Below are positions 8,202-62,830 of a DNA stretch of 64,000 nucleotides, piece by piece (position 1 is the stretch's first letter; each line of letters begins with the position of its first letter). Source of the stretch: Lepidostoma basale (lineage: Eukaryota > Arthropoda > Insecta > Trichoptera > Lepidostomatidae); contig JAHDVF020000903.1 in NCBI GenBank assembly GCA_022606425.2, positions 620,001-684,000 on the forward strand, written 5' to 3'. Below the pieces are notes generated by a model. It did not search any database and was not told the DNA's origin. It saw only the letters and a program-made list of their open reading frames with translations. The position numbers and the translations under genes are program-made.

Positions 8202-8245
8202 ACTACACTGATGAAGGGCTTCTGTGTCCCGAAACACGTTTAGGT
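8202..8245 (+). ncRNA. Hammerhead ribozyme motif, GGG/CCC stem II
   Basis: The core CTGATGA (8208-8214) is followed by A, then GGG (8216-8218) and CCC (8228-8230) as a 3-bp stem II, then GAA (8231-8233). Stem III would be ACACGT, a one-base variant of the ACATGT palindrome, and the cleavage nucleotide is T8240. Stem I pairs poorly unless two bases bulge. The core is intact, but activity is doubtful. Related to the broken pair at 62.6-62.75 kb. Confidence 0.6.
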
Positions 8246-8289
8246 TAATGTGTATTTTTTTTATATTTTAAAAATAAAGTGTTGTGTTA

Positions 8290-9460
8290 CAAAGAAAGAA
8301 AAATATTATTCAATTAGAAAAATTATTTTGAATACCGATCATGATCTAATAAATTTCGTTAATAAGGAACAAAAATAAATAATTTCACATAAAAATATCA
8401 TTGGTATATATATTTGTATATTTTTTTAAAATTTTATCATTAATAAATAAATAAATAATTGACCTTTAATTTAATTAAAGAATATTTTTTATACAGAAAT
8501 TATAATAAAGGTCAATTATCAAATAAATAGAATATAAAGTATTATATAATTTTTTTTATAATATAAATTTTTAAATAACATTTTTTTTTAATAATATCCG
8601 AATATGAAAAAAAGTGTTATTTAAAGGATAAGAAATGAAATGCACTATGGGAACTTGTAGTATAAAAGCTTACAGAAACTTCTTCTCACTCATTTTCACC
8701 ATGTTCTTTATTTTTTTCTAAAACTATATTCCGTCTGAGAATGGGTGATATTAAATTTGTTTTCACCAATACAGGTATTTATAATAATATTTCTGTAAAT
8801 ATTTTATGGTCCTTCCACAGACAAGAGAGATGCGAATAACTACAAATATTTACAACAAAAATAACAATTAAATGAAAGGTGGTAAAAATAGTAGAGATAC
8901 AATTCATTTAAATTTAAATTTGCGAACGTTTGATTTGTACCTTTTGACTACGGATGCGTAGGGGGTTTAATGTGCACTTCGAATCCAACACCCGGAAACA
9001 ATATGACAGATGTCAGGCAAACAGCGATATTTACGCCCATGCACCCGCAACCCTATCAGATTCACCCCGTGCACATTATATTATTAGACACTCTGTATCG
9101 ACAGCGCAGCGTTGTTCCGAATAGTTTTATACCAAGGGATTGTATTGTGCAGAATACAAAAATGGGAATTGATGTAGTAGTGTATTATCTAAATGTATAA
9201 TGCACTTTTCCCGGTATCAACATACATACGTATATAGAATAATGATTCCTCATTTAAAGTATTAAGTATCCACAACGTTCTCCAATAAGAAAAAATAGTA
9301 AACAGTCGTTTTTTATTAATTTTTTGTATACTGAAATGAATTTTAGAGACCAACTTGTTTAATTTATCCTATCCTGAATTTTAGATAAAATTAAGGTCGA
9401 ACTGTCGAATTCCATAATGACGAATTTTTTTATGAATTAAACACTGTTTTTTTTTTCATT
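8290..9460. other. AT-rich DNA, with a moderate-GC patch at 8930-9140
   Basis: No gene is recognised. The 8930-9140 patch has one ORF of 76 codons without any family signature and is probably non-coding. Confidence 0.3.
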
Positions 9461-9473
9461 TTTGTGTTTATTT

Positions 9474-9518
9474 TTCTCGACATGTTTCAAAGTCCTTATA
9501 CCTTCATCATCGGAAGAA
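9474..9518 (-). ncRNA. Hammerhead-like motif with one core change
   Basis: On the minus strand stem I pairs over five bases (TTCTT at 9514-9518 with GAGAA at 9474-9478). The core reads CCGATGA, so U4 has become C. A weak stem II AAG/CTT follows, then GAA, ACATGT and cleavage base C (position 9479). Stem I and stem III are well kept, so this is a recent relic of another hammerhead family. It is likely inactive. Confidence 0.6.
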
Positions 9519-9605
9519 CGATATATAAAGGTTTATATCGTTTTCCGAATTAAATTATTTCATTTAAATATAATTGAATTTCTTCATACATTATTCTTCT
9601 TATAT

Positions 9606-9722
9606 ATGTGTGCATGACACGATGTATGAACGTTGAGGAAGCGAGAAAAGTATCAAAGGAAAGAACTGTGTAGCGGTCAATTTTTCTGCTGTGATAGTGA
9701 CGAGTAGTTAGTTAATTAGTTA
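9606..9722 (+). mobile_element. RTE-type LINE 3' relic
   Basis: GCATGACACGATGTATGAA, GTTGAGGAAGCGAGA and a degenerate GTTA tail match the terminal region of other RTE copies here. No open frame remains. Confidence 0.65.
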
Positions 9723-9729
9723 AATTTAA

Positions 9730-10555: not shown

Positions 10556-10559
10556 ATTT

Positions 10560-10760
10560 TCTATGTTTCGATTTTATAGTGTATTTGTTTAGAATTTAAA
10601 ACAAATGAAAACATCTATTTTCTAGAATTTTTATAGTATGATATTAATGGGAATGACACTTTTTTTTTAAATTACATTTTTTATAATGCAAGGCAAAACA
10701 CATCATTCCCTTAAAATATAATGAAATTAATAGAAAATATACGTTTTCATTCGTATTAAT
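10560..10760. repeat. F1-family palindromic repeat, degraded
   Basis: The left arm ends GGGAATGACA. The right arm has GCAAGGCAAAACACATCATT, then ATATAATGAAATT and ACGTTTTCATTCGTATTAAT. The arms have diverged, so this copy is older. Confidence 0.55.
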
Positions 10761-10939
10761 TATTTAATAGAGTTTTACATAGATTAAGAAATAATACATA
10801 TTTATTTGAGTGTCGTAGCGAGGCGAGATATTTTACAACCATAAAATATGACTTATAACTTCTATAAAACATACGTTTTCATCAATATCAAGTTGTTAAT
10901 ACTCGTACATTGATTTCATCAAAAATGTATCAATAGAAA

Positions 10940-11330: not shown

Positions 11331-11444
11331 GTTTGAATCTGATGAATCTACCGACACAAATGTTTTGAACGTCACAAAAATGTCCCGGACGGCCTCATAT
11401 ATATTTTTTTCAAATTATATGGATTAGATAAACCATTGTTTTGG

Positions 11445-11949: not shown

Positions 11950-12165
11950 CCTTCGTGGCCGAAGGTTCCGGGTTCGATTCCCGGCAACGGAAGTGTGATT
12001 GTGATACGGTCTTTAGTCTGGTGCAGAACTCACGTGACAATAAAATTCCAAAAGAATAGCTAACCTATCACATGTCATGAGAATCAATATGATATCTATT
12101 ACCCTTTACATCGATTTGACTCGCGCTGAAATGATGTAAAGAGCGACTTAAGAGAATAATAATAA
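11950..12165 (+). mobile_element. SINE family S, copy 2, with 3' hairpin tail
   Basis: The front of the tRNA-like head is deleted. The B box GGTTCGATTCC is at 11971-11981. The body matches the other copies (AAGTGTGATTGTGATACGG, TCACGTGACAATAAAAT, ATCACATGTCATGAG). The tail has a hairpin: CTTTACATC at 12104-12112 pairs with GATGTAAAG at 12133-12141. A TAA-rich tail follows. Confidence 0.75.
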
Positions 12166-16140: not shown

Positions 16141-17325
16141 AATGGTATGTAAGTGAACAGATTATATCATTGCTGTTTTTAATTCAGATAAAATGTTTAA
16201 AAATTGTTATCGCAATATAATAAATGTCATAAAATACATCATATGGTTAATTTGTTTTTATATAATATTTTACTTCATATTGTTATAATTAATAATCAAT
16301 TTTGTTTGTTTTAAATGGGGATCTAATACGCACTGTTTTAGAAATAATATTGTATTAAGCGATATGTTGTTTTCCATGACACCTATGATTTTTGAATAAT
16401 GGAAATATTATATATAAAATGTACAAATTTTTTTTTAAATTATATTTAGATAAAATCTAATAATGCTAACCAGTCAAAGACACAAACATTTGTGGATTTT
16501 AACTTTATGAACATTGTACAATGAACTTTATGAACATTGTAAAATACACCTTTTTAAATTTTATTATTAACAAATAACTTCTACCATGAAATTTCAAGTA
16601 TAATAACAAAATTAATATATTTTAAGTTACACATATATATTGTATATGACGTAGTAACTGATACTTATTTTTAATGACTTAAGTAATATTTTAGGTAGGT
16701 ATATCAGAAATAGGTTTTCACGAAATCCTAAGAAATTTGCTTTTGTCAAAATTATTTTTAATAAATGATGTCATTAATATTCATTATCATTCTAAGTGGA
16801 ATTTTATGTTTGGGTATCTAATGAAGGTGTTTTTTTTACTGTTGATGTTAATTGTAACTGAAAAAAATTTATTTAAAATGTTTTTTTTTAATTATTATTT
16901 CTATAGCTTTCTAGAAACAGTCGTTTTCTTTCATTATTCTCGTAAGAGCATGTCATAAGAATAGTGTATATAACATATTATATTGTGTAATATACACTTT
17001 TAAAAATATGCATATAATTTTTTTTTCTTATAAAAGCAGTATTCAAAAATATCTTTATTTTGGATATACTATAATTCTACTTAAAAATAATCTAATTGTA
17101 ATCTGTGTCATTATAAGATGGCAGTAAGCTGCCATAACTGGTGATGACTAAAGAATAAAATAGAATGAAACTGAATACTTATTCAGATTATTTAATTATA
17201 CACTTTTTTAAGACGATTAAAATACTTTAAATTATTAAAAAATAATAATAAAATATTTTGTATGTTCATAAATTTATAGTATATTATATAAAAGTATATA
17301 TTTCGATAATATTAATTTAAATGTT
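16140..17325. other. AT-rich DNA with HHR-family relics
   Basis: Positions 16485-16610 carry TGTGGATTTTAACTTTATGA and AACTTCTACCATGAAATTTC, matching the element at position 1-160. Positions 17115-17155 hold GATGGCAGTAAGCTGCCA followed by TAACTGGTGATGAC, a decayed copy of the GGCAG/CTGCC hammerhead. No gene. Confidence 0.45.
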
Positions 17326-17385
17326 TACATAATAATTAAATAAAACGATGTTTTTTAACTACTTCCACTTTTGTCTTTATTTAGA

Positions 17386-17426
17386 CAGCGACCGGTTTCG
17401 CCAGGCTCGCTGGCATCGACAGACTG
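17386..17426 (-). ncRNA. Hammerhead-like motif J, left arm
   Basis: On the minus strand stem I is CAGT with GCTG. The core is CTGTCGA, with A6 changed to T. A linker T follows, then stem II GCCAG/CTGGC with loop CGAGC, GAA, stem III palindrome ACCGGT, and cleavage base C (17390). All helices form; the A6 change should disable catalysis. Confidence 0.65.
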
Positions 17427-17445
17427 GTGATGTCTGTCTGTGTAC

Positions 17446-17486
17446 CAGTCTGTCGATGCCAGCGAGCCTGGCGAAACCGGTCGCTG
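17446..17486 (+). ncRNA. Hammerhead-like motif J, right arm
   Basis: Stem I is CAGT (17446-17449) with GCTG (17483-17486). The core CTGTCGA is at 17450-17456. Stem II is GCCAG (17458-17462) with CTGGC (17468-17472). GAA is 17473-17475, ACCGGT 17476-17481 and the cleavage base C17482. It shares the A6-to-T change with the left arm and the 23.6-kb copy, so the change predates the spread of the family. Confidence 0.65.
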
Positions 17487-17579
17487 TCTAAATAAAGACA
17501 AAAGTGGAAGTAGTTAAAAAACATCGTTTTATTTAATTATTATTTAAAATGAACTTCCATCAAGAGATTTCAGTAAAAT

Positions 17580-18040
17580 CATTTGATTATCTTCAATGTT
17601 AACGTATTTATGTATCGTTTCCTTAAGAATAGTCCTAATTAAATATTTAATTAGAATGTATTATTATTAATATTTTACATTTAATATTTTATTATATTAA
17701 CTGACATGTTTACCGAGCTATGGAATTATCAGCTAAACAAAACAACAAATGAATATAATAATAAAAAAATTCAGAATAACAGATGTTTTCATCAATATTA
17801 AATACTTAAATACATAATTATATATACAATACATAATAATACTCTCCTAGATACAAATATTGAATACAAAATAAAATTAGGTTATTTATTTGTTAATTTT
17901 TCTAGTCCCACATCTTGTTAAATATGCGCATGTTCTTAATTCAAAACAAACAAAATTCGTTATGTATGAAACCGCCCATAAAGTAAAAATGTATATATAA
18001 ACGTTAAAACATATTTAGGGAATGAGTATTAGTAATAGTT
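17580..18040. other. AT-rich DNA, no gene seen
   Basis: Low-complexity sequence. Nothing is recognised. Confidence 0.3.
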
Positions 18041-18489: not shown

Positions 18490-18562
18490 TTCTTCTTCGT
18501 CACAATAGCTTGGCCTTCTACCTTTCACTTGCCATTGTGGTGGAAGGCTCGGAATTACTTTT
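18490..18562 (-). mobile_element. LINE relic matching the 24.9-kb copy
   Basis: On the minus strand CCTTCCACCACAATGGCAAG matches the 24.92-kb element, which carries a LINE-type 3' end downstream. Short and non-coding. Confidence 0.4.
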
Positions 18563-18574
18563 TTTTTTGTATAC

Positions 18575-18780
18575 AATTTAAAGCCAATTACTGTATAAAT
18601 TTTATTTTAGCTGATATGTATATTGATTCTCATGACACATTAATTCTAATAGGTTACATATTAGATTCCTGGTAAGCTAGTCTATCGCCATTTAATTGTC
18701 ACGTGAGATCTCCACGAGACCAAGTGTGATAATCATACTGCAGCCGCCGAGAATCGAACCCGCGACCTTCGGTATGGCAA
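18575..18780 (-). mobile_element. SINE family S, copy 3
   Basis: The B box reads GGTTCGATTCTC (minus), near 18749-18760. The body has GATAGACTAGC, TCATGAGAATCAATATACAT and CAGTAATTGGC. The A-box part of the head is lost where the homology stops at about 18780. Confidence 0.7.
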
Positions 18781-18929
18781 TTATTTATTTATTTTTCTTT
18801 TACAGAAATGAGACATATCAAACGAAAAACATTTGGACTCAAAACGGTAAACAAAAATGCAATATCGATATAAAACTAAGAGATAATATACGATTGTCTC
18901 AGAAGGATCCCAAATATTATATAATATGT

Positions 18930-20990: not shown

Positions 20991-21244
20991 TGAATATATT
21001 TACATAAGTTAAATGATACCAGCTTGACATTTTTCTAAGAAAAAAACCTACATAGGCTCGCTAATATACGAGTAAGTGTACACCCAAATCAATGTCAGAT
21101 GCTAAATATACCTAATAATAATGTAAACTAGGCTTTGGCATAAGATATTTTATGTAGTGATTTATTTAAAGTTGCATTATACATAAAAATGACTTTTAAA
21201 CATAAAATATAAATAAGAATAATTAATTTCTCTTTTCCTTCTTT

Positions 21245-21440
21245 AATACTTAAAATACAACACTAACATTAAAAAAAATATTACATAGACATGTTTCGGA
21301 CAACCAGTCCTTCTTCATTGATACATATTATAAAGATGTTATCTGTCAGATGTATCTTTGTATGTATCACTGAAGAAGGACTGGTTGTCCGAAATATGTC
21401 TATGTAATTTTTTTTAATGTTAGTGATGTATATACAAAGT
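21245..21440. repeat. Hammerhead family F head-to-head inverted repeat
   Basis: The arms at about 21245-21335 and 21360-21440 mirror each other: CATTAAAAAAAATATTACAT against TATGTAATTTTTTTTAATGT, with GGACAACCAGTCC against GGACTGGTTGTCC. The left (minus) hammerhead has core ATGAAGA, so C3 is lost. The right one is intact. Confidence 0.8.
21370..21404 (+). ncRNA. Hammerhead ribozyme motif, family F
   Basis: The core CTGAAGA is at 21370-21376. After A, stem II is GGAC (21378-21381) with GTCC (21387-21390) and loop TGGTT. GAA is 21391-21393. Stem III is ATATGT (21394-21399), a one-base variant of the ACATGT palindrome. The cleavage base is C21400. Stem I pairs less well than in the 33.3-kb copy because TGG is missing after the cleavage site. 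Confidence 0.7.
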
Positions 21441-21714
21441 ATATAAAAAAGAAAAAGATAATGAAAGCATACGAGTATACAACACAAAGTATGGCGAACA
21501 TAGAAGAAAGATTAATTAAGTTTAAGCTAAAAAATAAACTTCCGGAATATACTTCTTTTGTTTTTATTTTTTAATTAGTTTCTGTTTACAATTTACAATT
21601 TGTCGATAATATGTTGAAATAATCTGTTTTTAACTAATGAAACCATTTAAGCATTTTATAAGATAAGATTAAAAGGGATTTTTTTCGTGATTTCTAATGA
21701 TTTTATTTATCATT

Positions 21715-23306: not shown

Positions 23307-23722
23307 CATAATTGAGGACCGTTTTCACAAAGCGAAATATCTACAAAATGTAAATTTTTCAGGAGAAGGTTTTTTCATGTTAAAAATAATACATTTTGTA
23401 TGAAATTGCGATATTTGAACCGCTACAACTTTGCACATATACCGTTTTGTTAAAATTTATTTCACCAATCGATAGAGCTCACATGGAAGAAAAAAATTCC
23501 ATAAAAAAAACTTTTTTTTTTTTGATAATCAAATGATTTTACTGAAATCTCTTGATGGAAGTTCATTTTAAATAATAATTAAATAAAACGATGTTTTATA
23601 ACTAATTCCACTTTTGTCTTTATTAAGACAGCGACCGGTTTCGCCAGGCTCGCTGGCATCGACAGACTGGTATTTTTTTTTTTTGTAGAAATTTCACTTT
23701 GTGAAAACGGTCCTCAATTATG
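23307..23722. mobile_element. MITE with about 41-bp terminal inverted repeats
   Basis: The left end CATAATTGAGGACCGTTTTC is matched in inverse by the right end, and complementarity continues to CTACAAAA with about two mismatches. A piece of hammerhead family J lies inside at 23522-23671. No transposase is seen and the target duplication is unclear. Confidence 0.7.
23522..23671 (-). repeat. Hammerhead family J, single copy inside the MITE
   Basis: It runs from GATAATCAAATGATTTTACT to GGCATCGACAGACTGGT and is collinear with the right arm at 17.45-17.58 kb. The motif has CTGTCGA, stem II GCCAG/CTGGC, GAA, ACCGGT and C. It ends just at the 5' edge of the hammerhead (stem I), which suggests that copies begin there. 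Confidence 0.75.
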
Positions 23723-26559: not shown

Positions 26560-26812
26560 TATACCTACTTAGTTTAATCCACAAAATACTTTAAAAAAAA
26601 CACGCCATGTTTCTAAGGATACCTTATTTCTTCAGGTGTAAAAATATAAAAGTGTAAAAATGTAAAAATATTATACACCTGAAGAGGTATGACCCTGAAC
26701 ATGTTTTGTTTTTTTTTTTTTAATATTTTGTAGATTTCCTAAGTATATTACTATGGAATTCCACAGTGTTAATGTCTTAGCGTTCAATAATTTAATATTA
26801 TGTATAATAATG
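26560..26812. repeat. Hammerhead family A head-to-head inverted repeat
   Basis: The left arm has TTTAATCCACAAAATACTTT. The right arm has ATATTTTGTAGATTTCCTAA, then ATTACTATGGAATTCCACAG and AATGTCTTAGCGTTCAATAA. The right-arm hammerhead (26676-26710) is degraded; it lost part of stem II and one A of GAAA. Confidence 0.7.
26600..26639 (-). ncRNA. Hammerhead family A variant with compensated stem II
   Basis: On the minus strand stem I ACAC pairs with GTGT. The core is CTGAAGA, the linker AA, stem II TAAGG/CCTTA with loop TAT, then GAA. Stem III reads ACATGG in place of ACATGT, so U16.1 is lost and cleavage is unlikely. Both sides of stem II differ from the family GGAGG/CCTCC yet still pair, a compensatory change that supports the fold. 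Confidence 0.7.
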
Positions 26813-27195: not shown

Positions 27196-27395
27196 TTGGT
27201 TTCATTGCACACCCTATTCAAAAATTAATTCATATTATGCTTGATGTCTAGATAGATTACACGTGAGTTTTCTTATCTTCATTGCTATGTTCAATCCAAG
27301 GGATTGATTTGCAGCAAAATGTACAATAAAATTATAATTCTTGGGATACCACTTGTGGTAGTTTCTCGTTGCTTTCGACATTTGTATATGGCAGG

Positions 27396-27575
27396 TTATT
27401 TGAACCCAATTGCTGTATACAACTTTTAACTATTGATTCTCATGACATGTCAATGGTTGCTAATCTATCGCCATTTTATCGTCACGCGAATTCTACACCA
27501 CACTCAAGACAGTGTGACCAACCCGGAACCTTCGGTGTGGCAGTCATAATTCCTGCCAATCTGCCACAGGCCAGA
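27396..27575 (-). mobile_element. SINE family S, copy 4
   Basis: The body matches (TTTGAACCCAATTGCTGTAT, ATTGATTCTCATGACATGTC, TCTATCGCCATTTTATCGTC, GAATTCTACACCA). Part of the B-box region is deleted, and the head reads GGCAGATTGGCAGG (minus). Confidence 0.7.
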
Positions 27576-27607
27576 GTTTGATAACCTGTATTCAATCACG
27601 TTATTGA

Positions 27608-27868
27608 AGGTAAAGGCGTTAACACTGTAGAATTCAATTTGGAATAGAATTATTAACACTGTTTAATCCACATTCACTTATTAAACATTTTTACAGAATT
27701 AAAATATTATACACAACATGTTTCAGAGGTGACCTCCATCCTCAGGTTTAAATATTTACACCTGGAGATGGAAGAGGTCACCTCCGAAACATGATGTCTT
27801 ATAATTCTGTAAAAATATTAAATAAATAAAAGTAAATTAAACAGTTTTAATAATTTTATTCTTTATTT
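27608..27868. repeat. Hammerhead family A head-to-head inverted repeat
   Basis: The arms at about 27645-27750 and 27758-27860 mirror each other: TTTTTACAGAATTAAAATAT on the left, ATAATTCTGTAAAAATATTA on the right. The left (minus) hammerhead keeps all core bases. The right one has CTGGAGA, losing A6. Confidence 0.75.
27711..27749 (-). ncRNA. Hammerhead ribozyme motif, family A
   Basis: On the minus strand the core is CTGAGGA, the linker T, stem II GGAGG/CCTCT (one G-U) with loop TCA, GAA, the palindrome ACATGT and cleavage base U (27715). Stem I pairs 3 of 4 bases. Position 7 of the core is G, which is allowed. A UH site with U is usually slower than UC. Confidence 0.7.
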
Positions 27869-28334: not shown

Positions 28335-28580
28335 ATTCACAATTATTTATAACGAATACGAATGCAAATATTTGTTTTTTAGAAGTTTTATTTTTGGGAG
28401 AATGACATGTTTCACCTTGCTAAGGCATTATCAAATATCTATAAACATTTGCCTTAGAGATGCGAAACATGCCATTCCCATAAAATATAATAAAACTTCT
28501 AAAAAACATACGTTTTATTTCGTTAATTATTTAATATGGAGTTTTACACAATTGTTTAAGAAACAATAGATAAAATTATT
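28335..28580. repeat. F1-family palindromic repeat, best copy
   Basis: Left and right arms mirror each other: TTTTTTAGAAGTTTTATTTT with AATAAAACTTCTAAAAAACA, and GAATGACATGTTTCACCTTG with GATGCGAAACATGCCATTCC. The right end reads TAATTATTTAATATGGAGTT, then TTTACACAATTGTTTAAGAA. The GCCTTAG...AAGG(T/C) hairpin plus GAAACATGYC resembles a hammerhead stem II and GAAA, but the core is TTGATAA or worse. Confidence 0.7.
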
Positions 28581-30787: not shown

Positions 30788-31008
30788 ATCGCTATTTACA
30801 TCAATTTAGATTAGGCTGTAATGATGTAAATAGCGATATGAAATAAATAGCTTTCATATTGATTATCGTGATATGTGATAATTAGTTAATCTATCGCCAT
30901 TTTTAGCGATAAAAGACAGAGTGACAATCACACTGCCATCGCCGGGAATCGAACCCGGGACCTTCGGGGTGGCAGTCAAGGCACTTACCACTCTGCCACG
31001 AACGTCAT
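30788..31008 (-). mobile_element. SINE family S, copy 5, with a 16-bp tail hairpin
   Basis: A box TGGCAGAGTGG (minus) at 30988-30998 and B box GGTTCGATTCC at 30945-30955 are both perfect. The tail hairpin pairs ATCGCTATTTACATCA (30788-30803) with its complement at 30822-30837, a perfect 16-bp stem. The loop is inverted relative to copies at 12.1 and 51.2 kb. Confidence 0.85.
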
Positions 31009-33083: not shown

Positions 33084-33176
33084 ACTAACGATATCCAGGA
33101 GGACCACCCAAAAGATGGAGAAACAGTTGGACGCCAGTCTTAGATAATACAGAAGAAGAAAAAATAAAATAAAATA
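33084..33176 (+). mobile_element. LINE family 2 3' tail relic
   Basis: ATATCCAGGAGGACCACCCA, then GGACGCCAGTCTTAGATAAT and an AGAAGAAGAAAAAATA tail. Non-coding. Confidence 0.6.
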
Positions 33177-33189
33177 GATTTATTTGTCA

Positions 33190-33310
33190 TTTTCTTTTTT
33201 ATATACTTTATATATACAACACTAACATTTAAAAAAATTACATACCAGACATGTTTCGGACAACCGGTCCTTCTTCAGTGATACATATTATAAAGATACA
33301 TATTTAAATA
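33190..33310 (-). repeat. Hammerhead family F element, single copy
   Basis: This is a minus-oriented element collinear with the right arm at 21.36-21.44 kb: TATATACAACACTAACATTT on the plus strand beyond the ribozyme. There is no second arm here. Confidence 0.75.
33241..33289 (-). ncRNA. Hammerhead ribozyme motif, family F, with 9-bp stem I
   Basis: On the minus strand stem I pairs nine consecutive positions (33281-33289 with 33241-33249), three of them G-U. The core CTGAAGA is 33274-33280. After A, stem II is GGAC/GTCC with loop CGGTT. GAA is 33257-33259, ACATGT 33251-33256 and the cleavage base C at 33250. This is one of the best supported hammerheads in the window, since stem I is long and not part of any generic motif. 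Confidence 0.85.
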
Positions 33311-33410
33311 TAGAAGAAAATAGATTTATTTTTATTTTTGTGAAATGTATACCTACATCTGTATACGAATCCTGGATTTTCACCTGTGGGTGGTTAATTT
33401 AAATTTTTAA

Positions 33411-33804
33411 TTATATCTCAATAGAGACGAAGAAACAAACTGGAAACTGACTATGGATGATCAAGGTGTTTACAGGACTTATGACCTGTCATTGGTTGGG
33501 TTAAGCGCACGCTTTATGTAATTACAACATTCCCCATTCCACCATTGTTATGATCATGTATGATACATTTTTTGGAAGTTGTATATATACTCCAAATCCA
33601 TACTTATTTTCACGTGGCAGTTCCAGTTAGCCATCTATGTAGATTTGATTGTACTAATTAATCATAACAATGGTGGAATGGGGAATGTTGTAATTACATA
33701 AAGCGTACGCTTAACCCAACCAATGACAGGTCATAAGTCCTGTAAACACCTTGATCATCCATAGTCAGTTTCCAGTTTGTTTCTTCGTCTCTATTGAGAT
33801 ATAA
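33411..33804. mobile_element. TTAA-flanked palindromic MITE, 144-bp arms
   Basis: The left arm 33411-33554 and right arm 33661-33804 are inverted repeats that differ at about one base (GCGCACGC against GCGTACGC). TTAA lies on both sides (33407-33410, 33805-33808). The ends read TTATATCTCAATAGAGACG. The arms relate to 35.97-36.24 kb and 43.96-44.24 kb. No coding capacity. Confidence 0.85.
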
Positions 33805-34029
33805 TTAAAAATGAAAATAGATTTTTTAATATGTGAGAAGGTTTAAATTTGAAATGCATTTTACATAAATATAGTAATCATTCACGCTTTTTTAAACGAA
33901 TAACAATCTTAAAATTTATTCGTCAGTATATAAATTAATATGATTTAAAACCGCCATAAATCTAAATCGATTCACGTCAATGAACAAAGGTGAATGTACC
34001 CGCAATACCTTTATCTGAACAAACAGTGT

Positions 34030-35966: not shown

Positions 35967-36238
35967 ATTCTTACACCTATTCTTAACAGATGGCGTTAGT
36001 GTAGATTGAACTAATAACATGTTAAGTGTGGTGCAACGTAGTAGCATATATACAACTTCCAAAAAATTGTCAGACGTGGTGTGTTCGTAAGAAAGGCGGT
36101 ATGGAGAATGTTGTTAACATAAAGCGATCGCTTAACCCAACCAATTACAGGTCATAAATCCTGTAACGCTTCGACCACCATATTATGTTTCCAAAAAAGA
36201 AATTTACATCTTCGTCTCTATTGAGATACAATCAATCC
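35967..36238 (-). mobile_element. TTAA MITE, asymmetric copy
   Basis: It matches 43.96-44.24 kb in reverse: CATCTTCGTCTCTATTGAGA and AATCAATCC at the right end, with TTAA at 36239-36242. The left end has ACAGATGGCGTTAGTGTAGA. The left terminus is unclear because a LINE tail abuts it. Confidence 0.7.
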
Positions 36239-38419: not shown

Positions 38420-38625
38420 GAAATTTTTGGAAAAATTTGAATTAAATACAAAATTAAAATTTTATGTTTTTTTTTTTGTTTCAATCCTAGGAATGAGTTT
38501 ACTAATAGATATTTATGTATTAAATTTGATAATGCCTTAGAAGGGCGAAACATGTCTTTCCATCTAAAATATAATAAAACTCCTAGAAGAAAGACGTTTT
38601 CATTCATATTAATTAGAGAATATAT
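38420..38625. repeat. F1-family copy
   Basis: The right arm TTTGATAATGCCTTAGAAGG, GCGAAACATGTCTTTCCATC and CTCCTAGAAGAAAGACG is well kept. The left arm is absent or decayed. Confidence 0.6.
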
Positions 38626-39828: not shown

Positions 39829-40249
39829 GTTCATACAATGTATGTGAACGTCATTTGCTATGCATACGATGCCGCATTAATAACGGAGTCTGAAAATGAC
39901 TTGCAAAGAATGTTGTACAAATTCCACACAGTATCGCAAAGACAAATATGGCTGTATCAGTCAACAAAACAAAAAGTCTTACTATTTCTAGGCAACCTCC
40001 AAGATGTAAGCTGACTGTTGATGATACATATATCTGTGGAGCAAGTAATAAATTTCAGATATTTGGGAGTAGAGATCTGCAGCCATAATGACATTTTAAC
40101 CGAAGTACGAGAACAAGTCAGTTAAGCCTCTGCCGCGTCAGGATGTCTGAAGAATCTGGTCTGGAAGAACAAGCACATGCGTATCGACAGCAAGATCAGA
40201 ATTTATAAAACATGCGTGAGACATATCATGACGTACTCTGTAGAGACGT
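39829..40249 (+). pseudogene. LINE family 2 reverse transcriptase fragment
   Basis: The plus strand reads NVICYAYDAALITESENDLQ, then RMLYKFHTVSQRQIW and later KNKHMRIDSKIRIYKTCVRH with frame breaks. It is collinear with 60.95-61.4 kb. The catalytic YADD is YAYD here, so the polymerase would be dead. It ends abruptly at 40249 after GTAGAGACG, where the hammerhead element begins. Confidence 0.8.
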
Positions 40250-40406
40250 GACCGTGTAACACCTGATGATGTCAACATGGGTTGATGAAACAGCTATCGT
40301 GTAAAATAAAATACAATTGTGATACAAAAACAAAGTTATTTAATTTAACCGTTTAAAATGTAAAGGTATCATAGTGTTTCGGCCAAAACAATGGACTATT
40401 TAATGA
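40250..40406 (+). repeat. Hammerhead family G element
   Basis: From the hammerhead, the copy runs through ACAATTGTGATACAAAAACA, GTATCATAGTGTTTCGGCCA and ACAATGGACTATTTAAT. The same 3' stretch follows the 48.5-kb hammerhead and ends at the same place, so both copies begin at the ribozyme and end near GGACTATTTAAT. Confidence 0.75.
40259..40302 (+). ncRNA. Hammerhead ribozyme motif, family G
   Basis: Stem I ACAC (40259-40262) pairs with GTGT (40299-40302). The core CTGATGA is 40263-40269. Stem II GTCAAC (40271-40276) pairs with GTTGAT (40281-40286), one G-U, loop ATGG. GAA is 40287-40289. Stem III ACAGCTAT (40290-40297) is a one-base variant of the ACAGCTGT palindrome. The cleavage base is C40298. 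All conserved core positions are present. Confidence 0.85.
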
Positions 40407-42771: not shown

Positions 42772-43125
42772 TAACTAACTAAATATCCATCACACCGTTT
42801 AATTTGGGGTGTATGCAAAGAGGATGGACCGCCACGCTGTTTTTTTCTTGTATACAACATGTTGTTTGAACCCAATTACTGTGTATAATTTATTTTAACT
42901 ATTATATTGATTATTATGACATGTGATAGGTAGCCAATCTATCGTCATTTTATTGTCACGAGAATTCTACACCAGATCAAAGACAGTGTGACAATCACAC
43001 TGTAATCGCCGGGAATCGAACCCGGGACCTTCGGTTTGGAAGTTAGAGTTTTACCACTCTGCCACGAAGGTCGACAATATCCTTACATAACTCTCGCAAC
43101 TTTTGAACATTCATATAACATGATG
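42772..43125 (-). mobile_element. RTE-type LINE 3' end split by a SINE
   Basis: Positions 42772-42840 carry the CTAA tail and CATCACACCGTTTAATTTGG, ending GGACCGCCACGC. After the SINE, 43075-43125 continues with ACAATATCCTTACATAACTC and AACATTCATATAACATGATG. The two parts join in RTE order, so the SINE entered the RTE copy. Confidence 0.7.
42847..43073 (-). mobile_element. SINE family S, copy 6, most complete
   Basis: The A box (TGGCAGAGTGG, minus, 43054-43064) and B box (GGTTCGATTCC, 43012-43022) are both perfect. The head begins GACCTTCGTGGCAGAG. The body has CAGTGTGATTGTCACACTG, itself a hairpin, and ends in TTGGGTTCAAACAAC. About 225 bp. Confidence 0.85.
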
Positions 43126-43800: not shown

Positions 43801-43959
43801 AAACACAGTTACATCGGTAATATCATCGTATTACATGATAAATATTTTAGTTAGCCAACAGACATTTTGTTTTCTACATAAACAAATTTATGTTTGTTTA
43901 AATCTGATATATGTTTAGTATACGAGTATATTGATAAATACAAAATGAACTATTTTTAA

Positions 43960-44242
43960 GGATTAATTGTATCTCAATTGAGACGAAGATGTTAATTGTT
44001 TTTTGGAAACAGAATATGGTAGTCGAGGCGTTTACAGGACTTATGACCTGTCATTGATTGGGTTAAGCAATCGCTTTATGTTAACAACATTCCCCATTCC
44101 GCCCTTCTTACGACTACCACGTCTGACAAATTTTTGAAAGATGTATATATGCTACTATGTTAAGAAACACTTCACATTTTTAGGTCAATCTACACTAGCG
44201 CCATCTATTAAGATTATATGTAAGGTTATATATAATTAATCC
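43960..44242 (+). mobile_element. TTAA MITE, 283 bp
   Basis: Terminal inverted repeat GGATTAATT with TTAA on both sides (43956-43959, 44243-44246). It contains ATCTCAATTGAGACGAAGAT and TTACAGGACTTATGACCTGT, the latter a small hairpin. TTAA target sites are typical of piggyBac-type transposition, but the end bases are not classical piggyBac. Confidence 0.8.
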
Positions 44243-44504: not shown

Positions 44505-45240
44505 ATAATTAATATATACTTGTTGTTTCTTGAACAGTCAGGTAAAACTTGGACAAAGCTGGGCAGCTTTCGGAAACATGAGTTACATCCTTAAAAACTG
44601 GAAAATACCGATCAACCTTAAACGAAAGGTCTATGAAGCCTGCGTTCTGCCAGTTGGTACTCATGATCTTGAAACTGTTACATTGTCCAAACAAAGTGCC
44701 GAGAGACTGCGAGTGGGCCCAAAGAGCCATGGAAAGAGCCATGTTAGGAATAAGCCTAAGAGACAGAGTCAGAAACGATACGGTGAGAGAAAAAACATAG
44801 GTCACTGGCGTCATCCACAGGGAGGCGACTCTAAAATGACAATGGGCAGGTCACGTAGCCAGAAGCACAGATAAAAAGTGAACAAAAAGACTGCTGACTT
44901 GGAGACCATGGAGGGCGAAAAGAAGTGCAAGAAGTGCAACCGCAACTACGGTGGAAGGATGATCTGAACAGACACGTCGGAATAACCTGGATGCAGTCTG
45001 CACAGAACAGAATGACATGGAAGCAAATGGAGGAGGCCTTTGTCCATGAGTGGACGGGAATAGGCTGAGGAAGAAGAAGAAGATGTATAACTATATATTA
45101 TTTAGATAATACGAATAAAAACGTCAACATTTGAGAGTGCCTTAGAAAGGCGAAACATAATTTCCATAAACTATAACAAAACTCCTAGAAAACACGTTTT
45201 CATTCGTATTAATGTTGTAAAATGAAATTTCTTGTTTGAA
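44505..45240. repeat. F1-family copy interrupted by a LINE
   Basis: The left part TTGTTTCTTGAACAGTCAGG lies at 44523-44543. The right part, CAACATTTGAGAGTGCCTTA, AAAGGCGAAACATAATTTCC and ACACGTTTTCATTCGTATTA, is at 45122-45212. The LINE at 44538-45085 separates them. Confidence 0.6.
44538..45085 (+). pseudogene. LINE family 3 reverse transcriptase C-terminal fragment
   Basis: The plus strand reads LGQSWAAFGNMSYILKNWKI, PINLKRKVYEACVLPVGTHD and LETVTLSKQSAERLRV, then frameshifts, and ends LSMSGRE before an AAGAAGAAGA tail. The WAAF...KVYEACVLPV...LETLTL pattern is the post-palm region of a different insect LINE from families 1 and 2. Several frameshifts and stops are present. Confidence 0.8.
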
Positions 45241-46829: not shown

Positions 46830-47430
46830 ATTTATTTATAATAATAAAATAATAAGAATGATAATAATCATAATAATAATTCAAACAGTAATTAGAAGGA
46901 ACAATCATACATAATATAGAGTCAAAAACGATGAATCCTAATATATTAAAGACGATAAACATTATAAGGAAGCAGATTACATTAGTAAGAAAGGGACAAA
47001 AATGGAAGGTAGTATTAATATTTTTTTGGTAGATTGTATAAAGGAAAAGTTTTTAATGTACTACATATATACTAAGGGGGAATAAGCTGGAATTTGGTTA
47101 TTTATAACATTCAATTCACGTGCCTTTGCTTTAAAAATTTTTTTCTAATTTATCAATTTTTTTTTAAATTGTTTGCTATATGCAAAAAAAATGTGTTTTT
47201 GGAATTGAAATGATGGTCAAAATTCACACAATGATTCTGTTTTTGTATTAAATGTTGTGTTCATATAACCTCTTCAAAATGATCGACCCGTCTTTCCAAT
47301 ATACACGGCATCACAATCCTCACAATTAATCTGGTAGATTCCACTTTGGTTGAATATATTGTCGCGAAAAAATAAAAAACACAATTGTGATACATAAAAC
47401 AAAGTTTTTAATTAACAATTTATAATTCAT
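46830..47430 (-). pseudogene. Penelope-like element fragment with GIY-YIG endonuclease
   Basis: On the minus strand, 47245-47355 reads SGIYQINCEDCDAV, then YIGKTGRSF, a stop, RGYMNT. GIY followed by a Cys-rich loop and YIGxTGR is the signature of the C-terminal GIY-YIG endonuclease of Penelope-like elements. Downstream, KQFKK and KAKARELNVI fit the end of that domain after frame breaks. On the plus strand, from 47352, TTGTCGCGAAAAAATAAAA and ACAATTGTGATACATAAAAC match the flank that follows family G hammerheads. The reverse transcriptase is missing. Confidence 0.75.
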
Positions 47431-48484: not shown

Positions 48485-48640
48485 ATTCTCACACCTGATG
48501 ATGTCAACATAGGTTGACGAAACAGCTGTTGCGTAAAATAAAATACCATTGTGATACATAAAACAAAGTTATTTAATTTTACAGTTAAAAATGTTAAGGT
48601 ATCATAGTGTTACGGCCAAAACAATGGACTATTTAATAAT
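48485..48640 (+). repeat. Hammerhead family G element
   Basis: Collinear with 40.25-40.41 kb through CCATTGTGATACATAAAACA, AAGGTATCATAGTGTTACGG and ACAATGGACTATTTAATA. Upstream flanks of the two copies differ right before ACACCTGATGA, so the element starts at the ribozyme. Confidence 0.75.
48491..48534 (+). ncRNA. Hammerhead ribozyme motif, family G
   Basis: Stem I ACAC (48491-48494) pairs with GCGT (48531-48534) at 3 of 4 positions. The core CTGATGA is 48495-48501. Stem II GTCAAC (48503-48508) pairs perfectly with GTTGAC (48513-48518), loop ATAG. GAA is 48519-48521, the ACAGCTGT palindrome 48522-48529 and the cleavage base T48530. Against the 40.3-kb copy, stem II changes only G-U to G-C. 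Confidence 0.83.
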
Positions 48641-49769: not shown

Positions 49770-50250
49770 TGGCATTCTGCATTCTAGAAGTTTTATTACA
49801 TTTGTTAAATGTTTTTTATTGCTAAAGCATTATCAAATGTTGGCATTTGATTGTTCCTTAGCAAACGGACACATCGCACGCTTAATAGTAAACTGACCGA
49901 TTATGGTTTAGGTCATAATTGAGTTAACATTAGACAAAGACTTGTGTTAACGCTATCCATCTATTTTTCACAATGTTAACGCTATCCATTTGTACGTGTT
50001 TTTCGACTGTTTTTGTTAAAACACCGACTCATGTCAGATTGAGCAAAACTTGCTATTTTCGAGTTAAGCCAGTGTACGTTTTTTTCGACTGTTTTTGTTA
50101 AAACACCGACTCATGTCAGATTGAGCAAAACTTGCTATTTTTGAGTTAAGCCAGTGTTCTATTAAGCGTGCGATATGTCATTCCTATGAAATATACTACA
50201 ACTTTCAAATTCTTATAAATTAATTATAAATAAGTGTTAGTTCATTGTTC
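49770..50250. repeat. F1-family copy split by a TIR element
   Basis: The left part TAGAAGTTTTATTACATTTG, GCTAAAGCATTATCAAATGT and TTTGATTGTTCCTTAGCAAA ends before 49874. The right part TATGTCATTCCTATGAAATA begins after 50173. Joined, they restore the F1 order. Confidence 0.7.
49874..50173. mobile_element. About 300-bp TIR element with internal tandem duplication
   Basis: Perfect 15-bp terminal repeats: TCGCACGCTTAATAG at 49874-49888 and its complement at about 50159-50173. Inside, an ~82-bp unit holding TTTTTCGACTGTTTTTGTTA and CCGACTCATGTCAGATTGAG occurs twice, at about 49992-50073 and 50074-50156, with few differences. GTTAACGCTATCC also occurs twice. No transposase. The target duplication is unclear (ACAT/ATAT). 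Confidence 0.8.
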
Positions 50251-51170: not shown

Positions 51171-51338
51171 TTTAAATCCCTTACATCATTACAGCGCGAG
51201 CCAAATCGATGTAAAGGGTATAGCTATCGCCATTTTGATGTCACGTGAATTCTACACGAGACCAAAGACAGTATGATAATCACACTTCCATTGATGGGAA
51301 TCGAACCTGGGACCTTCCGTATGGCAATTAAAGCAGAG
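51171..51338 (-). mobile_element. SINE family S, copy 7, with tail hairpin
   Basis: The B box GGTTCGATTCC (minus) is at 51297-51307. The body has TCTCGTGTAGAATTCACGTG (minus). The tail hairpin pairs CCCTTACATC (51178-51187) with GATGTAAAGGG (51208-51218), one bulge. The loop has the same orientation as the 12.1-kb copy. Confidence 0.78.
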
Positions 51339-54280: not shown

Positions 54281-54281
54281 G

Positions 54282-55020: not shown

Positions 55021-55194
55021 AAGATAATCACTGAAACTCTTTTTCTTAGTCTTTTGGTACCTCTAAATTAAAATAACAATTAATAAATAGATAAAATAAA
55101 ATCAACACTTTGTATTTTAACCATGAAATTGTAAATAAGTATACTTGACGCTAACTGATTTCACTTTAACCCAAAAATTGAGACAATATAAAAA

Positions 55195-55440
55195 CTTATT
55201 GAAAGTTAAGGCATCAACACTGTGGAATTCTATAGTAATCTACTTTGGGAATTAAAAAAATATTGTTTAAGCCACTTTTAATAAAAACAAATATTAAAAT
55301 ACACGACATGTTTCGGAGGATACTTCCATTTTTACACCTGAAGATGGAGGTATCCTCCGAAACATGTCGTGTATTTTAATATTTTTATATTAAAATGTGG
55401 TTTAAGTAATGTTTTTTTAATTCCCAAAGTAAATATAAAA
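55195..55440. repeat. Hammerhead family A head-to-head inverted repeat
   Basis: The left arm (about 55205-55333) has AAGGCATCAACACTGTGGAA and TTAAAATACACGACATGTTT, but stops within the hammerhead before the core. The right arm (55334-55440) carries the complete ribozyme and GTGTATTTTAATATTTTTAT. The palindrome centre therefore lies at the 5' edge of the ribozyme. Confidence 0.8.
55334..55372 (+). ncRNA. Hammerhead ribozyme motif, family A, intact
   Basis: Stem I ACAC (55334-55337) pairs with GTGT (55369-55372). The core CTGAAGA is 55338-55344, followed by linker T. Stem II GGAGG (55346-55350) pairs with CCTCC (55354-55358), loop TAT. GAA is 55359-55361, stem III ACATGT 55362-55367 and the cleavage base C55368. 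Every conserved position is present (core position 7 may vary). Alone it would have a minimal stem III; two copies can pair through ACATGT. Confidence 0.88.
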
Positions 55441-55444
55441 ACTC

Positions 55445-57005: not shown

Positions 57006-57044
57006 GCACCTGAAGATGGAGGTATCCTCCGAAACATGTCGTGT
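57006..57044 (+). ncRNA. Hammerhead ribozyme motif, family A, intact
   Basis: Stem I GCAC (57006-57009) pairs with GTGT (57041-57044), including one G-U. The core CTGAAGA is 57010-57016. Stem II GGAGG (57018-57022) pairs with CCTCC (57026-57030), loop TAT. GAA is 57031-57033, ACATGT 57034-57039 and the cleavage base C57040. All conserved positions are present. Confidence 0.87.
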
Positions 57045-59090: not shown

Positions 59091-59099
59091 TCACTTGTA

Positions 59100-59930: not shown

Positions 59931-60200
59931 AAACATAATGGGGGAGACCAAATTCTTAAGCCATGTCGCTTTATATAAGGTCGGGGTGGGGGTAGAGTAG
60001 ACTGGAGACTCCTTTTATGGCCAGCTCAGGATTAATCTTCAAGAAAAATGTGATATTTAAATGAACGACATTCTTACGGGGAGAAATGAAAGAGGGAACT
60101 AAGGTGGGGACTGGTGTTTCTGGGATATCATTTGAAAAAAATCTTTTGTGTAATGGGAACTTGAGGGGTGTATAATATTCTATAAACAAGTCACGTACAT
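59930..60200. other. Moderate-GC unique DNA
   Basis: A 72-codon minus ORF overlaps it without a signature. It includes GGTCGGGGTGGGGGTAGAGT. Unassigned. Confidence 0.25.
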
Positions 60201-60269
60201 AGTGCTGTAGTAAATACAGTATTTTTTAATAATTCTTCAGAACTATTTTTTTTTAAAACAGATAATTTA

Positions 60270-60560
60270 ACATAATTTATTTATTTGTTCAGTAAGAGCA
60301 GCATATAGCGATATCAATATATTAATAAAGAAACATTAAGGAAAATAATGAATAAAGCCAATTACATGCTACCACAAATACAATAAACAGTTAATTGAAT
60401 TTAAGCTAAGGCAAAATACGGTCAAACAAAATGATTGAGAGTCAAACATAATAATAGTAGTGGAAATAAGAACAAAATTAAAAGTATAAATAAAAGTAAA
60501 AATAAAAGTAACATATTATATAATAATATCATGTAACATTATGTTCTCATCCACGCCGAA
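60270..60560. repeat. TTTA tail followed by A-rich repeat
   Basis: TAATTTATTTATTTGTTCAG precedes A-rich sequence with AAAAGTA repeats near 60480-60515. Same layout as 12.9 and 29.04 kb. Confidence 0.4.
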
Positions 60561-60629
60561 AGGTTGCTCCTTTTCTTTTCATTTCTTCAACATTTGCCAT
60601 AACTTTGTGTTGCAAATTCATTACATAAT

Positions 60630-61863
60630 CTTCTTCTTCTTCTTCTTCTTTTAATAGATCTGACGATCTGTGACACAGAAATCATATTCGTCGGATGATG
60701 AGATCCAGCTGTCCCTCCATCTCTTAGGTGGTCTTCCAGGTGGGAGGTGTCCGGAGGGGATTTCATAAGCGGCTGTATATGCGAGTCTGTCACCATCCAT
60801 TCGGGCTACATGGTCCCTCCAGTATATTCTTCTGGATCTACTCTACTGAACGATATCCTCTATTTTGCAGGTTTTTCTTATGTCTATGGTACGTTGCGGA
60901 CACGATCTCGGAGGGTTTTTCCAGTAATTGATCTTAGGACCTTCATCTCCGATGTTCTTAGTAGTCCCTTGGTTCGCACAGTGTCAGCCCGCGTCTCTAC
61001 AGCGTACATCATGATAGGTCGCACGCATGTTTTATAGATTCTGATCTTGCTGTCGTTACGCATGTGCTTGTTCTTCAAGACTAGATTCTTCAGGCATCCT
61101 GACACGGCAGAGGCTTTACTGACTTGTTCACGTACTTCGGTATAAAGGTCACTTTGGCTGCAGTTCTCCACTCCCAAATACCTGAAACTCATTACTTACT
61201 CCACAGGTATATCATCAACAGTCAGCTTACATCTTGTAGGTTGCCTAGATATAGTGAGAATTTTTGTTTTGTTGACTGATATACCCATATTTAGCCTTTG
61301 TGATACTGTGTGGAATTTGTACAACATTCTTTGCATGTCATCTTTAGACTCTGCTATTAATGCGGCATCGTCTGCATAGCAAATGACGTTCACAGTTTTA
61401 CTGCCCATTTTTTAACCTAGTCCCAGGCCAGTTACCTCTTCTGTGATTTGGTCCATAATAAGATTGAACAGAAAGGGGCTCAAACTATCTCCCTGTCTTA
61501 TACCATTGCTTGCAGGAATTTCCCTAGACAGTTCATTGTCAACTTTAATTTTCGTTTTGCAATTGGTATATATATCTTGGACAGTCTTTATCAATGTATT
61601 GGATATTCCTCCTTCCTGTAATTTTCTTACAATATCCCTTAGCAACACCCTGTCAAATGCCGTAGTCAGATCGACAAAACATATATAGGCTACTTTATTA
61701 TATTCAATTGCTTTCTCTTTCAGTTGCCTCAGAATGAAGATTGCATCTGTTTTGGAGCGATTTCGTCGAAAACCCTGCTGTTCTTCCCTATTAGTAATCT
61801 TTTGCTCAAGTTTCGTTTTTAGAATACTTGTAAATAGCTTAAGCATTGTACATAATAAGGAGA
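60630..61863 (-). pseudogene. LINE family 2, 1.2-kb 5'-truncated copy with reverse transcriptase
   Basis: This is the most complete LINE. On the minus strand one frame from about 61863 contains QGFRRNRSKTDAIF, motif A FVDLTTAFDRV, the GIRQGDSLSPFLFNLIM block and, after a TAA at about 61409, the catalytic YADDAAL. A second TAA near 61193 precedes RYLGVENC, and then IRIYKTCVRPIMMYAVETRA. Both stops lie in the same frame and are probably point mutations. Later parts are shifted. The tail is GAA repeats (TTC at 60630-60650). TCATTACATAAT at 60618-60629 and 61864-61875 is a 12-bp target duplication. The endonuclease is missing. Confidence 0.92.
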
Positions 61864-61879
61864 TCATTACATAATGTTT

Positions 61880-62630
61880 AATTTTTTAAATTTAAGCAAC
61901 ACGAACTATAGAAATATGGCTATGTATATTATTTTTAGAGCAAGAAGCGAGACCTATAAAACTTTTTTTTTCTGTTATTGTGTTTAAATAAAAATCTACT
62001 GATCATTGCCGCAGGTATGTTTTTTTTTAATTGTCTAATGATCGTTGCAGTAGTATGATTGTAAAAAGGTGAGTGTTATTCTATATATATTATTTGTGAA
62101 ACTCTGGAAGATATAATTATTTGGGCTTGAATGTATCAATATACATACGTAAATAACTTTGAAATTGGAACAGTCGTCCTCAGTAAATTATTATATTTTA
62201 AGAAATTTTTATTTATGTACAAAATAATGTATAGTTTCTCTTCGAAATATGGACTGAGAAAACATTAGTGTAGGATAGTCTACAAATTTCTGGAAACTCT
62301 TACAGCTTTGATTCAATTATATGTGACTTCACGGGAACAAACGGATTTCCGTAGTTTCTCAAAGGTCTAATGCTCTTTTTGGTGTATTGTGTTATTTAAC
62401 TAAGAAAAATACATTTTATTTCATGAAGCGAAACTTTGGAAATTTTTGATTTATTAATTTATATACAAAAAACATAGATAAAGCATATAGATTTTAAAAG
62501 TTTTATACCTTCATTATCTGTGAAACGATATAAAGTAACCAAAATAAACATGAAAGTGCATAAAACTGTATTTATAATCATAAAAATATTTGAATAACTT
62601 TTTGAAAACATTTTATTTTCCATTGAAAAC
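61880..62630. other. AT-rich DNA, no gene seen
   Basis: No element or gene is recognised. Confidence 0.3.
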
Positions 62631-62830
62631 ATTAAACCTTTCACAAACATATTTCGGGACACAGGCTTCCCTTATTCAGTGAATGAATTTTAACAGTTAA
62701 AATTCATACAACAAAGAAGGGAAGTCTATGTCCCGAAACATGTTTGTGAAAGGTGCAAAAAAGTGTTTTGAAAATACTATGTTTTCAAAAAGTTATTCAT
62801 ATGTAAATCTAAAACACAAAGTGATGGCGA
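62560..62830. repeat. Hammerhead-family inverted pair with GGGA/TCCC stem
   Basis: Head-to-head arms at about 62565-62690 and 62695-62810 share CTTTTTGAAAACATTTTATT-like flanks and the ribozyme region. On the minus strand (62636-62682) the core is CTGAATA (G8 lost), stem II GGGA/TCCC, GAA, ATATGT. On the plus strand (62710-62757) the core is CAAAGAA, with GGGA/TCCC, GAA, ACATGT kept. Neither should cleave. Same family as 8.2 kb. Confidence 0.65.

Follow-up and report, generated by a model that had tools for sequence, protein, structure and literature searches.

Short hammerhead-bearing units in the genome of the caddisfly Lepidostoma basale, probably former dependants of Penelope-like elements

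A stretch of 64,000 nucleotides from the caddisfly Lepidostoma basale (GenBank assembly GCA_022606425.2, contig JAHDVF020000903.1, positions 620,001 to 684,000 of the forward strand), hereafter the window, contains many motifs resembling the hammerhead ribozyme, which raises the question of whether these motifs are real and what kind of element carries them. All counts given below are restricted to this 64-kb window, and sites are named by position and strand. The hammerhead-like sites are real and exceed the level expected by chance, but they are not canonical hammerheads. It is probable that the window holds several families of short, non-autonomous and mostly decayed retroelement units that formerly depended on Penelope-like elements (PLEs). 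The observed basis comprises the motif, the pairing of different stem II sequences, the anatomy of the units, a tail confined to one arm of the palindromes and two target duplications; from this we infer that a PLE protein moved the units. An earlier note, made from the sequence alone, had described a dense field of hammerheads in several retroelement lineages. The lineages are upheld by the observations just named; the field is real yet sparser than claimed, because of the core-only and score controls against shuffles, and the note had overlooked an extra nucleotide, the absence of a real stem III and the palindromes.

In the core-only selection, CTGANGA, 10-24 nt and GAAA were demanded and nothing else, and 200 dinucleotide-preserving shuffles served as the control. 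The window contains 16 such sites, against a mean of 1.66 per shuffle (maximum 6). A stem II of at least 4 bp is formed at nine of the 16, which represent families F1, F2 and F3; among 331 sites in the shuffles only 14 have one. This is in agreement with the earlier claim that stem II differs between families and nevertheless pairs. A self-complementary box of at least 6 nt accompanies 7 of the 16 sites, against 50 of 330 in the shuffles. The seven core-only sites without a 4-bp stem II are 8208+ (3 bp), 35038-, 13802-, 13865-, 14488-, 21909- and 60660+. A repeat composed of CTGACGA, TCTGTGACACA (or TCTGTGATAAC) and GAAA, similar to the hammerhead core but without a proper stem II, was noticed in copies at 13802, 21909 and 60660.

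A canonical descriptor, with stem II immediately after CUGANGA, is matched nowhere in the window (mean of 0.025 over 200 shuffles), whereas a strict descriptor tolerating 0-2 extra nucleotides between CUGANGA and stem II finds three (55338+, 57010+ and 33278-), against none in 100 shuffles. A relaxed structure score, compared with 60 shuffles, gives nine rows at 20 or more against 0.2 expected (maximum 2), 12 rows at 19 or more against 0.7, 15 at 18 or more against 2.6, and 27 at 17 or more, three of them being one place, against 8.0; at scores of 15-17 the window matches reach only two to three times the shuffle level. The Rfam search that had been proposed as a check returned no hammerhead match in the window, either at the gathering threshold or at E-values up to 10, and this, together with the extra nucleotide and the lack of a real stem III, tells against canonical hammerheads. 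Among the 14 sub-threshold Rfam matches (bacterial small RNA, small nucleolar RNA, microRNAs), 11 fall on palindromes.

Eight sites had been listed by the earlier note as complete. CTGANGA, a pairing stem II, GAAA and a UH cleavage site are present at all eight, but the short stem III is not, its place being taken by the box. By score they are uneven: 55338+, 57010+ and 33278- pass the strict descriptor, 40263+, 27745- and 48495+ reach 19.5-20, 21370+ reaches 17 and 8208+ stays below 17. The list of about ten near-miss sites is a mixture of relics and chance matches, as shuffle counts rise at lower scores. The supported rows, 9-12 in 64 kb and many of them decayed, correspond to one per 5-7 kb instead of the one per 3-4 kb that had been estimated. 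Sites beyond those listed were also found, namely 1675- (with G at the cleavage position), 17450+, 17422- and 23665- (CTGTCGA) and 9513- (CCGATGA).

The anatomy of the motif was compared in an alignment of 16 rows, comprising 14 window sites and two sites from outside, L002 and L004, which were retrieved by a pattern requiring an extra T or A followed by G. The extra T or A before stem II, followed by G, is present in all 16 rows, the pattern having demanded it in L002 and L004. The number of extra nucleotides is exactly one in each of the nine rows with a score of at least 20, as it is in eight of the nine paired core-only sites, the remaining one (26635-, decayed) having two. In stem II of the 16 rows, which were partly picked by a descriptor requiring pairing and in which related copies are counted repeatedly, 98.4% of 64 cells are standard pairs, against 63.3% when shuffled and at most 57.8% when slid (none of 500 shuffles is as high), and 23 two-sided changes are seen. 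The core-only test is the cleaner control of pairing, because the alignment rows were partly selected for it. Three independent stem II sequences, those of families F1, F2 and F3, are free of such selection. F5 adds a fourth, at a score of 20 and with one core change (CUGUCGA), and F4, F6 and F7 reach scores of 17-19.5 at most. Thus, F1, F2, F3 and F5 are well supported families and F4, F6 and F7 are weaker.

After GAAA, where stem III would be expected, stands a box that is self-complementary over at least 6 nt at 9 of the 14 window sites and differs by family (ACATGT, AACATGTT, AACAGCTGTT, ACCGGT). With the core, a UH site, stems I and II and this box, the sites are predicted minimal type I hammerheads, that is, those with a short stem III. 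Owing to the extra U, an AUG spans A9-U10-G10.1 in the F1, F3, F5, F6 and F7 rows, and in F1 it lies 25 nt from the predicted cut. Apart from a frame of 50 codons in the 1675 copy, no open reading frame (ORF) was seen behind this AUG. A coding origin of this frame was considered and rejected, no homologue having been found.

Short units of about 130-160 bp start with the motif and finish in a hairpin, the tail; they occur either solo or as head-to-head palindromes (Table 1). The unit starts above CUGANGA by about 5 nt in F3, about 8 nt in F5 and about 12-15 nt (sometimes less) in F1, and the downstream part is AT-rich DNA up to the conserved hairpin end. Target duplications were scored against random positions or pairs of stretches for 17 insertions. 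The 15-bp duplication of the solo F2 unit has a score reached by none of 300 random pairs of stretches, and the 12-bp duplication of the 55.2-kb palindrome was matched by 1 of 300 random pairs in one test and 1 of 200 in another. Among the other palindromes the values were 0.015-0.017 at 21.2 kb, 0.09-0.16 at 27.7 kb, 0.12-0.72 at 62.6 kb and above 0.3 at 5.5, 6.7, 10.6, 17.3, 26.6, 28.4 and 1.1 kb; among the solo units they were 0.03 for 57010, 0.07 for 8208, 0.18 for 9513 and 0.84 for both 40263 and 48495.

Head-to-head palindromes lie at 1.6-2.1, 5.5, 6.7, 17.3, 21.2, 26.6, 27.7, 55.2 and 62.6 kb. Three others, at 1.1, 10.6 and 28.4 kb, are in a more advanced state of decay, and a further palindrome at 35.0 kb is weak. 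The tail is recognisable in seven (1.6, 5.5, 6.7, 17.3, 26.6, 27.7 and 55.2 kb), and in seven of seven a single arm has it. For six of these the tailless arm stops at most 7 nt from the start of the tail hairpin, the 26.6-kb pair being ambiguous. With arm ends taken from BLAST matches throughout, the gap is 1 nt at 17.3, 2 nt at 5.5 and 4 nt at 6.7 kb; judged by eye from the coordinates, it is 0-1 nt at 27.7 and 55.2 kb and 6-7 nt at 1.6 kb, the spread reflecting the choice of the first hairpin base. The palindrome at 1.6-2.1 kb carries in one F1 arm a 3' fragment of an RTE-type long interspersed nuclear element (LINE; about 1724-2029) with a 10-bp duplication, TGAAAATGGA. When the interval 1714-2039 was removed in silico, the inverted repeat was restored over 203 columns with 86.7% identity.

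A related tail motif, TGAACTTCTACCAAGAA with at most three mismatches, is common to F5, F6, F8 and the copies at 138 and 16574, so that families with different hammerheads have a tail in common. F8 palindromes and solo units were noticed at 6693-6870, 10596-10759, 28373-28508, 38524-38613 and 45129-45213, with the tail motif at 6842 and, in the opposite orientation, at 45245. Several F8 copies keep AAGGGCGAAACATGTC or a relic of it, without CUGANGA; F8 perhaps represents hammerheads whose 5' core was lost when they were still mobile. Two units have their 5' end close to a predicted cut: that of the right arm of the 5.5-kb palindrome (5583-5640) is 1 nt past the cut and that of the copy at 47369-47413 is within about 2 nt. 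They are possibly a trace of cut RNA serving as template, and no cleavage in vivo is claimed, since two cases are too few.

Table 1. Hammerhead-like sites, palindromes, units and tails of the window
Feature	Position	Strand	Remarks
F1 predicted minimal hammerhead	55333..55373	+	all strict elements present; 5-bp stem I, CUGAAGA followed by extra U, stem II GGAGG/CCUCC, GAAA, box ACAUGU, cleavage site UC
F1 predicted minimal hammerhead	57006..57044	+	all strict elements present
F2 predicted minimal hammerhead	33239..33287	-	all strict elements present; extra A
F1 hammerhead	1640..1680	-	cleavage position G; predicted inactive
F1 hammerhead	27711..27749	-	CUGAGGA; stem I with one mismatch; UU site
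F3 hammerhead	40259..40302	+	GUCAAC/GUUGAU; box palindrome decayed
F3 hammerhead	48491..48534	+	10-nt palindrome AACAGCUGUU; stem I with one mismatch
F2 hammerhead	21366..21410	+	damaged stem I; score 17
F4 hammerhead-like site	8204..8247	+	3-bp stem II; weak stem I; score <17
F5 hammerhead-like site	17446..17486	+	core CUGUCGA; self-complementary box ACCGGU; in right arm of 17.3-kb palindrome
F5 hammerhead-like site	17386..17426	-	left arm of 17.3-kb palindrome
F5 hammerhead-like site	23629..23669	-	within tailed solo unit
F7 hammerhead-like site, weak	9471..9518	-	core CCGAUGA; distant F1 relative with similar tail segment
F4 hammerhead-like site, weak	62637..62684	-	core CUGAAUA; inside palindrome 62588-62802
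F6 hammerhead-like site, weak	5572-5620	-	in 5.5-kb palindrome
F1 palindrome	55197..55431		left-arm tail only; 12-bp target duplications 55185-55196, 55432-55443
F5 palindrome	17324..17603		arms 105 nt, 99% complementary; right-arm tail only; right end approximate
F6 palindrome	5502..5750		around one weak hammerhead-like site; right-arm tail only; right end approximate
F8 palindrome	6693..6870		GAAACAUGUC retained, no CUGANGA; right-arm tail only; right end approximate
F1 palindrome	27602..27861		left-arm tail only
F1 palindrome	1546..2110		interrupted by RTE-type LINE fragment; left-arm tail only
F1 head-to-head pair	26566..26795		both hammerheads decayed; right-arm tail; left arm end ambiguous
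F2 palindrome	21228..21461		one hammerhead per arm (left decayed)
F4 head-to-head palindrome	62588..62802		
Complete 131-bp solo F2 unit	33186..33316	-	15-bp target duplications 33171-33185, 33317-33331
F1 tail, conserved 3' segment	55197..55237	-	GGAATTCC hairpin
F5 tail (TGAACTTCCATCAAGA...)	17550..17603	+	related motif at 138, 5712, 6842, 16574

Each unit begins about 5-40 nt above a minimal type I hammerhead and continues through an AT-rich stretch to the terminal hairpin tail. The hammerhead itself runs from CUGANGA and a single added A or U through stem II and GAAA to a short self-complementary box, UH and stem I. If the units depended on PLEs, as we consider probable, it would be built for putative cleavage as a dimer, two RNAs being paired through the box. 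A PLE protein would recognise the segment from hammerhead to tail and cut AT-rich target DNA, and reverse transcription would start in or beside the tail hairpin. A palindrome would arise when both target strands prime cDNA, with one start on the far side of the hairpin and the other on its near side; both cDNAs would then extend to the 5' end of the RNA, just above the hammerhead, and join head to head. A second start of reverse transcription at the hairpin is favoured by the second arm ending there. The palindromes are probably dead ends, because a read-through transcript would bury the hammerhead in a long hairpin.

Several observations weigh against this account. Neither a PLE reverse transcriptase nor a GIY-YIG domain was found among the 27 ORFs of at least 100 aa, shorter or frameshifted frames being unscanned, and the units are read as non-autonomous and PLE-dependent because no PLE protein was found in the window. 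The target duplications are convincing in only 2 of the 17 insertions (15 bp and 12 bp), those of the other 15 being unconvincing against random positions. The box is broken at 5 of the 14 window sites, with only 4 nt in 21370, 26635, 40263, 8208 and 62679. When seven monomers were folded, only L004 (equalled by 2 of 200 shuffles) and, weakly, L002 (by 10 of 200) were stable relative to shuffles; F5 misfolds in single-strand folding, and in the predicted folds of F1, F3, L002 and L004 the catalytic G12 is bound up in a pair with the extra U that would have to open. Moreover, F8 has the palindromic anatomy and the tail, yet no CUGANGA.

The nearest described systems are the minimal type I hammerheads (Cervera and De la Pena 2014; Lunse, Weinberg and Breaker 2017), as presented in the available parts of PMC7761336 and PMC6155905. 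The window sites resemble those of PLEs in the type I order, the lack of a real stem III, the presumed cleavage as dimers and the dispersal in non-coding DNA, some of the known ones lying in PLE pseudo-long terminal repeats (pLTRs). They may differ in the uniform extra A or U, and they do differ in that no PLE coding sequence was found here. According to the excerpts of PMC11167929, the ORF of PAc, a Poseidon PLE of Anolis, opens where stem II begins, and the cut falls 26 nt further downstream; reverse transcription starts in a stem-loop at 111-118 nt of the ORF; the tail is located between two reverse transcription start sites; and the protein cuts and extends both target strands in vitro. 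As far as those excerpts go, the window units share with PAc the AUG at the start of stem II, a predicted cut about 25 nt downstream, AT-rich targets and a downstream stem-loop, the site where PAc begins reverse transcription, but PAc is an autonomous element that has a full ORF and tandem copies, whereas the units here are about 130-160 bp long and have no ORF.

The extra nucleotide has a precedent in the plus-strand hammerhead of chrysanthemum chlorotic mottle viroid (CChMVd), where, in the sections of PMC3705267 at hand, an extra A10 between A9 and G10.1 is tolerated, U is better and C or G is harmful. The window rows likewise have one extra nucleotide at that position, A or U, although CChMVd is a chrysanthemum viroid of different origin from the units. 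In the monarch butterfly, PLEs are among the largest transposable element contributions, according to the passages available from PMC8848866. Among the papers listed in literature searches, none announces miniature hammerhead palindromes in its title, a result that speaks only weakly for the lack of such a paper.

In Adineta vaga, as the accessible part of PMC3846280 describes it, Penelope elements have head-to-head inverted pLTRs, palindromic junctions, duplications of 8-10 bp and a tail of 31 bp, which one of the inverted copies may lack. The same inverted anatomy, palindromic junction and one-arm tail are seen here, with short duplications at two insertions, although the Adineta vaga pLTRs, in that account, usually lie on either side of an ORF or of captured DNA and the palindrome in the window is usually the entire insertion. 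The same source prefers self-priming for head-to-head palindromes, in which a cDNA or antisense transcript folds back and copies itself, with no need of two templates, and the near-identity that arms can reach (99% over 105 nt at 17.3 kb) agrees with it. A snap-back copy, however, should reach the target and include the tail, whereas in six of seven palindromes (the seventh being ambiguous) the second arm reaches no further than 7 nt from the hairpin, as if reverse transcription had begun there, and, according to the excerpts of PMC11167929, extension of both target strands by a PLE protein is seen in vitro. Self-priming can thus be entertained for the window palindromes only tentatively. That a palindrome, with its single tail, is one insertion made from two RNA templates paired via the hammerhead box seems to us rather unlikely.

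Ordinary miniature inverted-repeat transposable elements (MITEs) or fold-back DNA transposons, with hairpins in their terminal inverted repeats by chance, would account for the many palindromes of 140-280 bp and for the majority of insertions in which no target duplication was demonstrated. They would not be expected to have asymmetric ends with the tail on one arm, a solo unit with its own 15-bp duplication, good duplications of unequal length (12 and 15 bp) or a motif that pairs as a hammerhead across different families, and this makes a MITE origin improbable. Small circular retrozymes, named in the earlier note, deserve still less weight and are very unlikely to be the source. Type I hammerheads of animals often occur in retrozymes of about 170-400 nt, and the available part of PMC7229834 suspects PLEs as helpers of the non-LTR ones, which the window units resemble in being small, non-autonomous and provided with type I hammerheads. 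Retrozymes as portrayed there, however, form tandem repeats and circular RNAs and have, in invertebrates, a proper stem III, which is absent here; no tandem array in the window contains the motif, so that neither a retrozyme nor a direct (partial) tandem copy of PLE type is seen, and since the units stand alone or in inverted pairs, a transcript would not be cut at two places to yield a circle. Chance hairpins of AT-rich repeats might be suspected from the low excess at scores of 15-17, the empty Rfam result and the 7 of 16 core-only sites without a 4-bp stem II. This reading is hardly credible against the excess of core-only sites, their pairing, the nine rows where 0.2 are expected and the fixed place of the motif in the repeat units of several families.

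A search of prokaryote genome contigs with the motif pattern gave five matches, two of which, L002 (6582-6615) and L004 (51-84), are good and have other stems. L001 and L005, with no stem and a coding appearance, and L003 (108-139), with a weak stem II, were rejected. The motifs of L003 and L004 lie less than 140 bases from the end of the examined stretch, and the contigs are filed as bacterial metagenome-assembled genomes (MAGs). Probably, host DNA was joined or mixed into these MAGs; L002-L004 may come from termite guts. Viral contigs yielded no match and then three, all with a structure score below the threshold and apparently due to chance in coding DNA.

Other repeats are also present in the window. 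The only RVT_1 match among the 27 ORFs (E 3e-20) is a LINE-like fragment at 61412-61885 (minus); named relatives of this reverse transcriptase fragment (61.4-61.9 kb) occur in the beetles Sitophilus and Zophobas, and those of the RTE-type fragment in Plutella, Phthorimaea, Spodoptera, Tuta and Eumeta. Further LINE copies lie at 39843-40248 and 60992-61394, and the F3 unit at 40.26 kb starts a few bases past the end of one of them. A dispersed repeat with a tRNA-like head (30932-31006, 1325-1396, 11959-12094, 18559-18783, 27382-27518, 42840-43072 and 51224-51335) is probably a family of short interspersed nuclear elements; its head at 30934-31005 scores 29.0 bits with the Rfam tRNA model, right at the cut-off, and is absent from the output of the gathering search. 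A 420-bp palindromic element at 33397-33818 has related copies at 36043-36235 and 43955-44224, and no hammerhead was noticed in them. Tandem repeats with units of 105 bp and 82 bp occur at 3606-3987 and 49991-50157, respectively.

Since Rfam detects none of these sites, search tools should tolerate an extra A or U and the absence of stem III. Units reduced to little beyond a hammerhead and a tail indicate what the machinery may need, and the ends of the palindromes provide a test of self-priming against insertion from two templates. Retroviral genomes carry a comparable palindromic dimerisation box. If palindromes did come from two templates, the hammerhead would be conserved for RNA pairing as much as for cutting, its palindromic box would bring two templates to one double-strand cut, and the start sites flanking the tail hairpin would leave exactly one tail per palindrome. 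The miniature units would then be the smallest parasites of the system, consisting of the hammerhead-to-tail segment alone.

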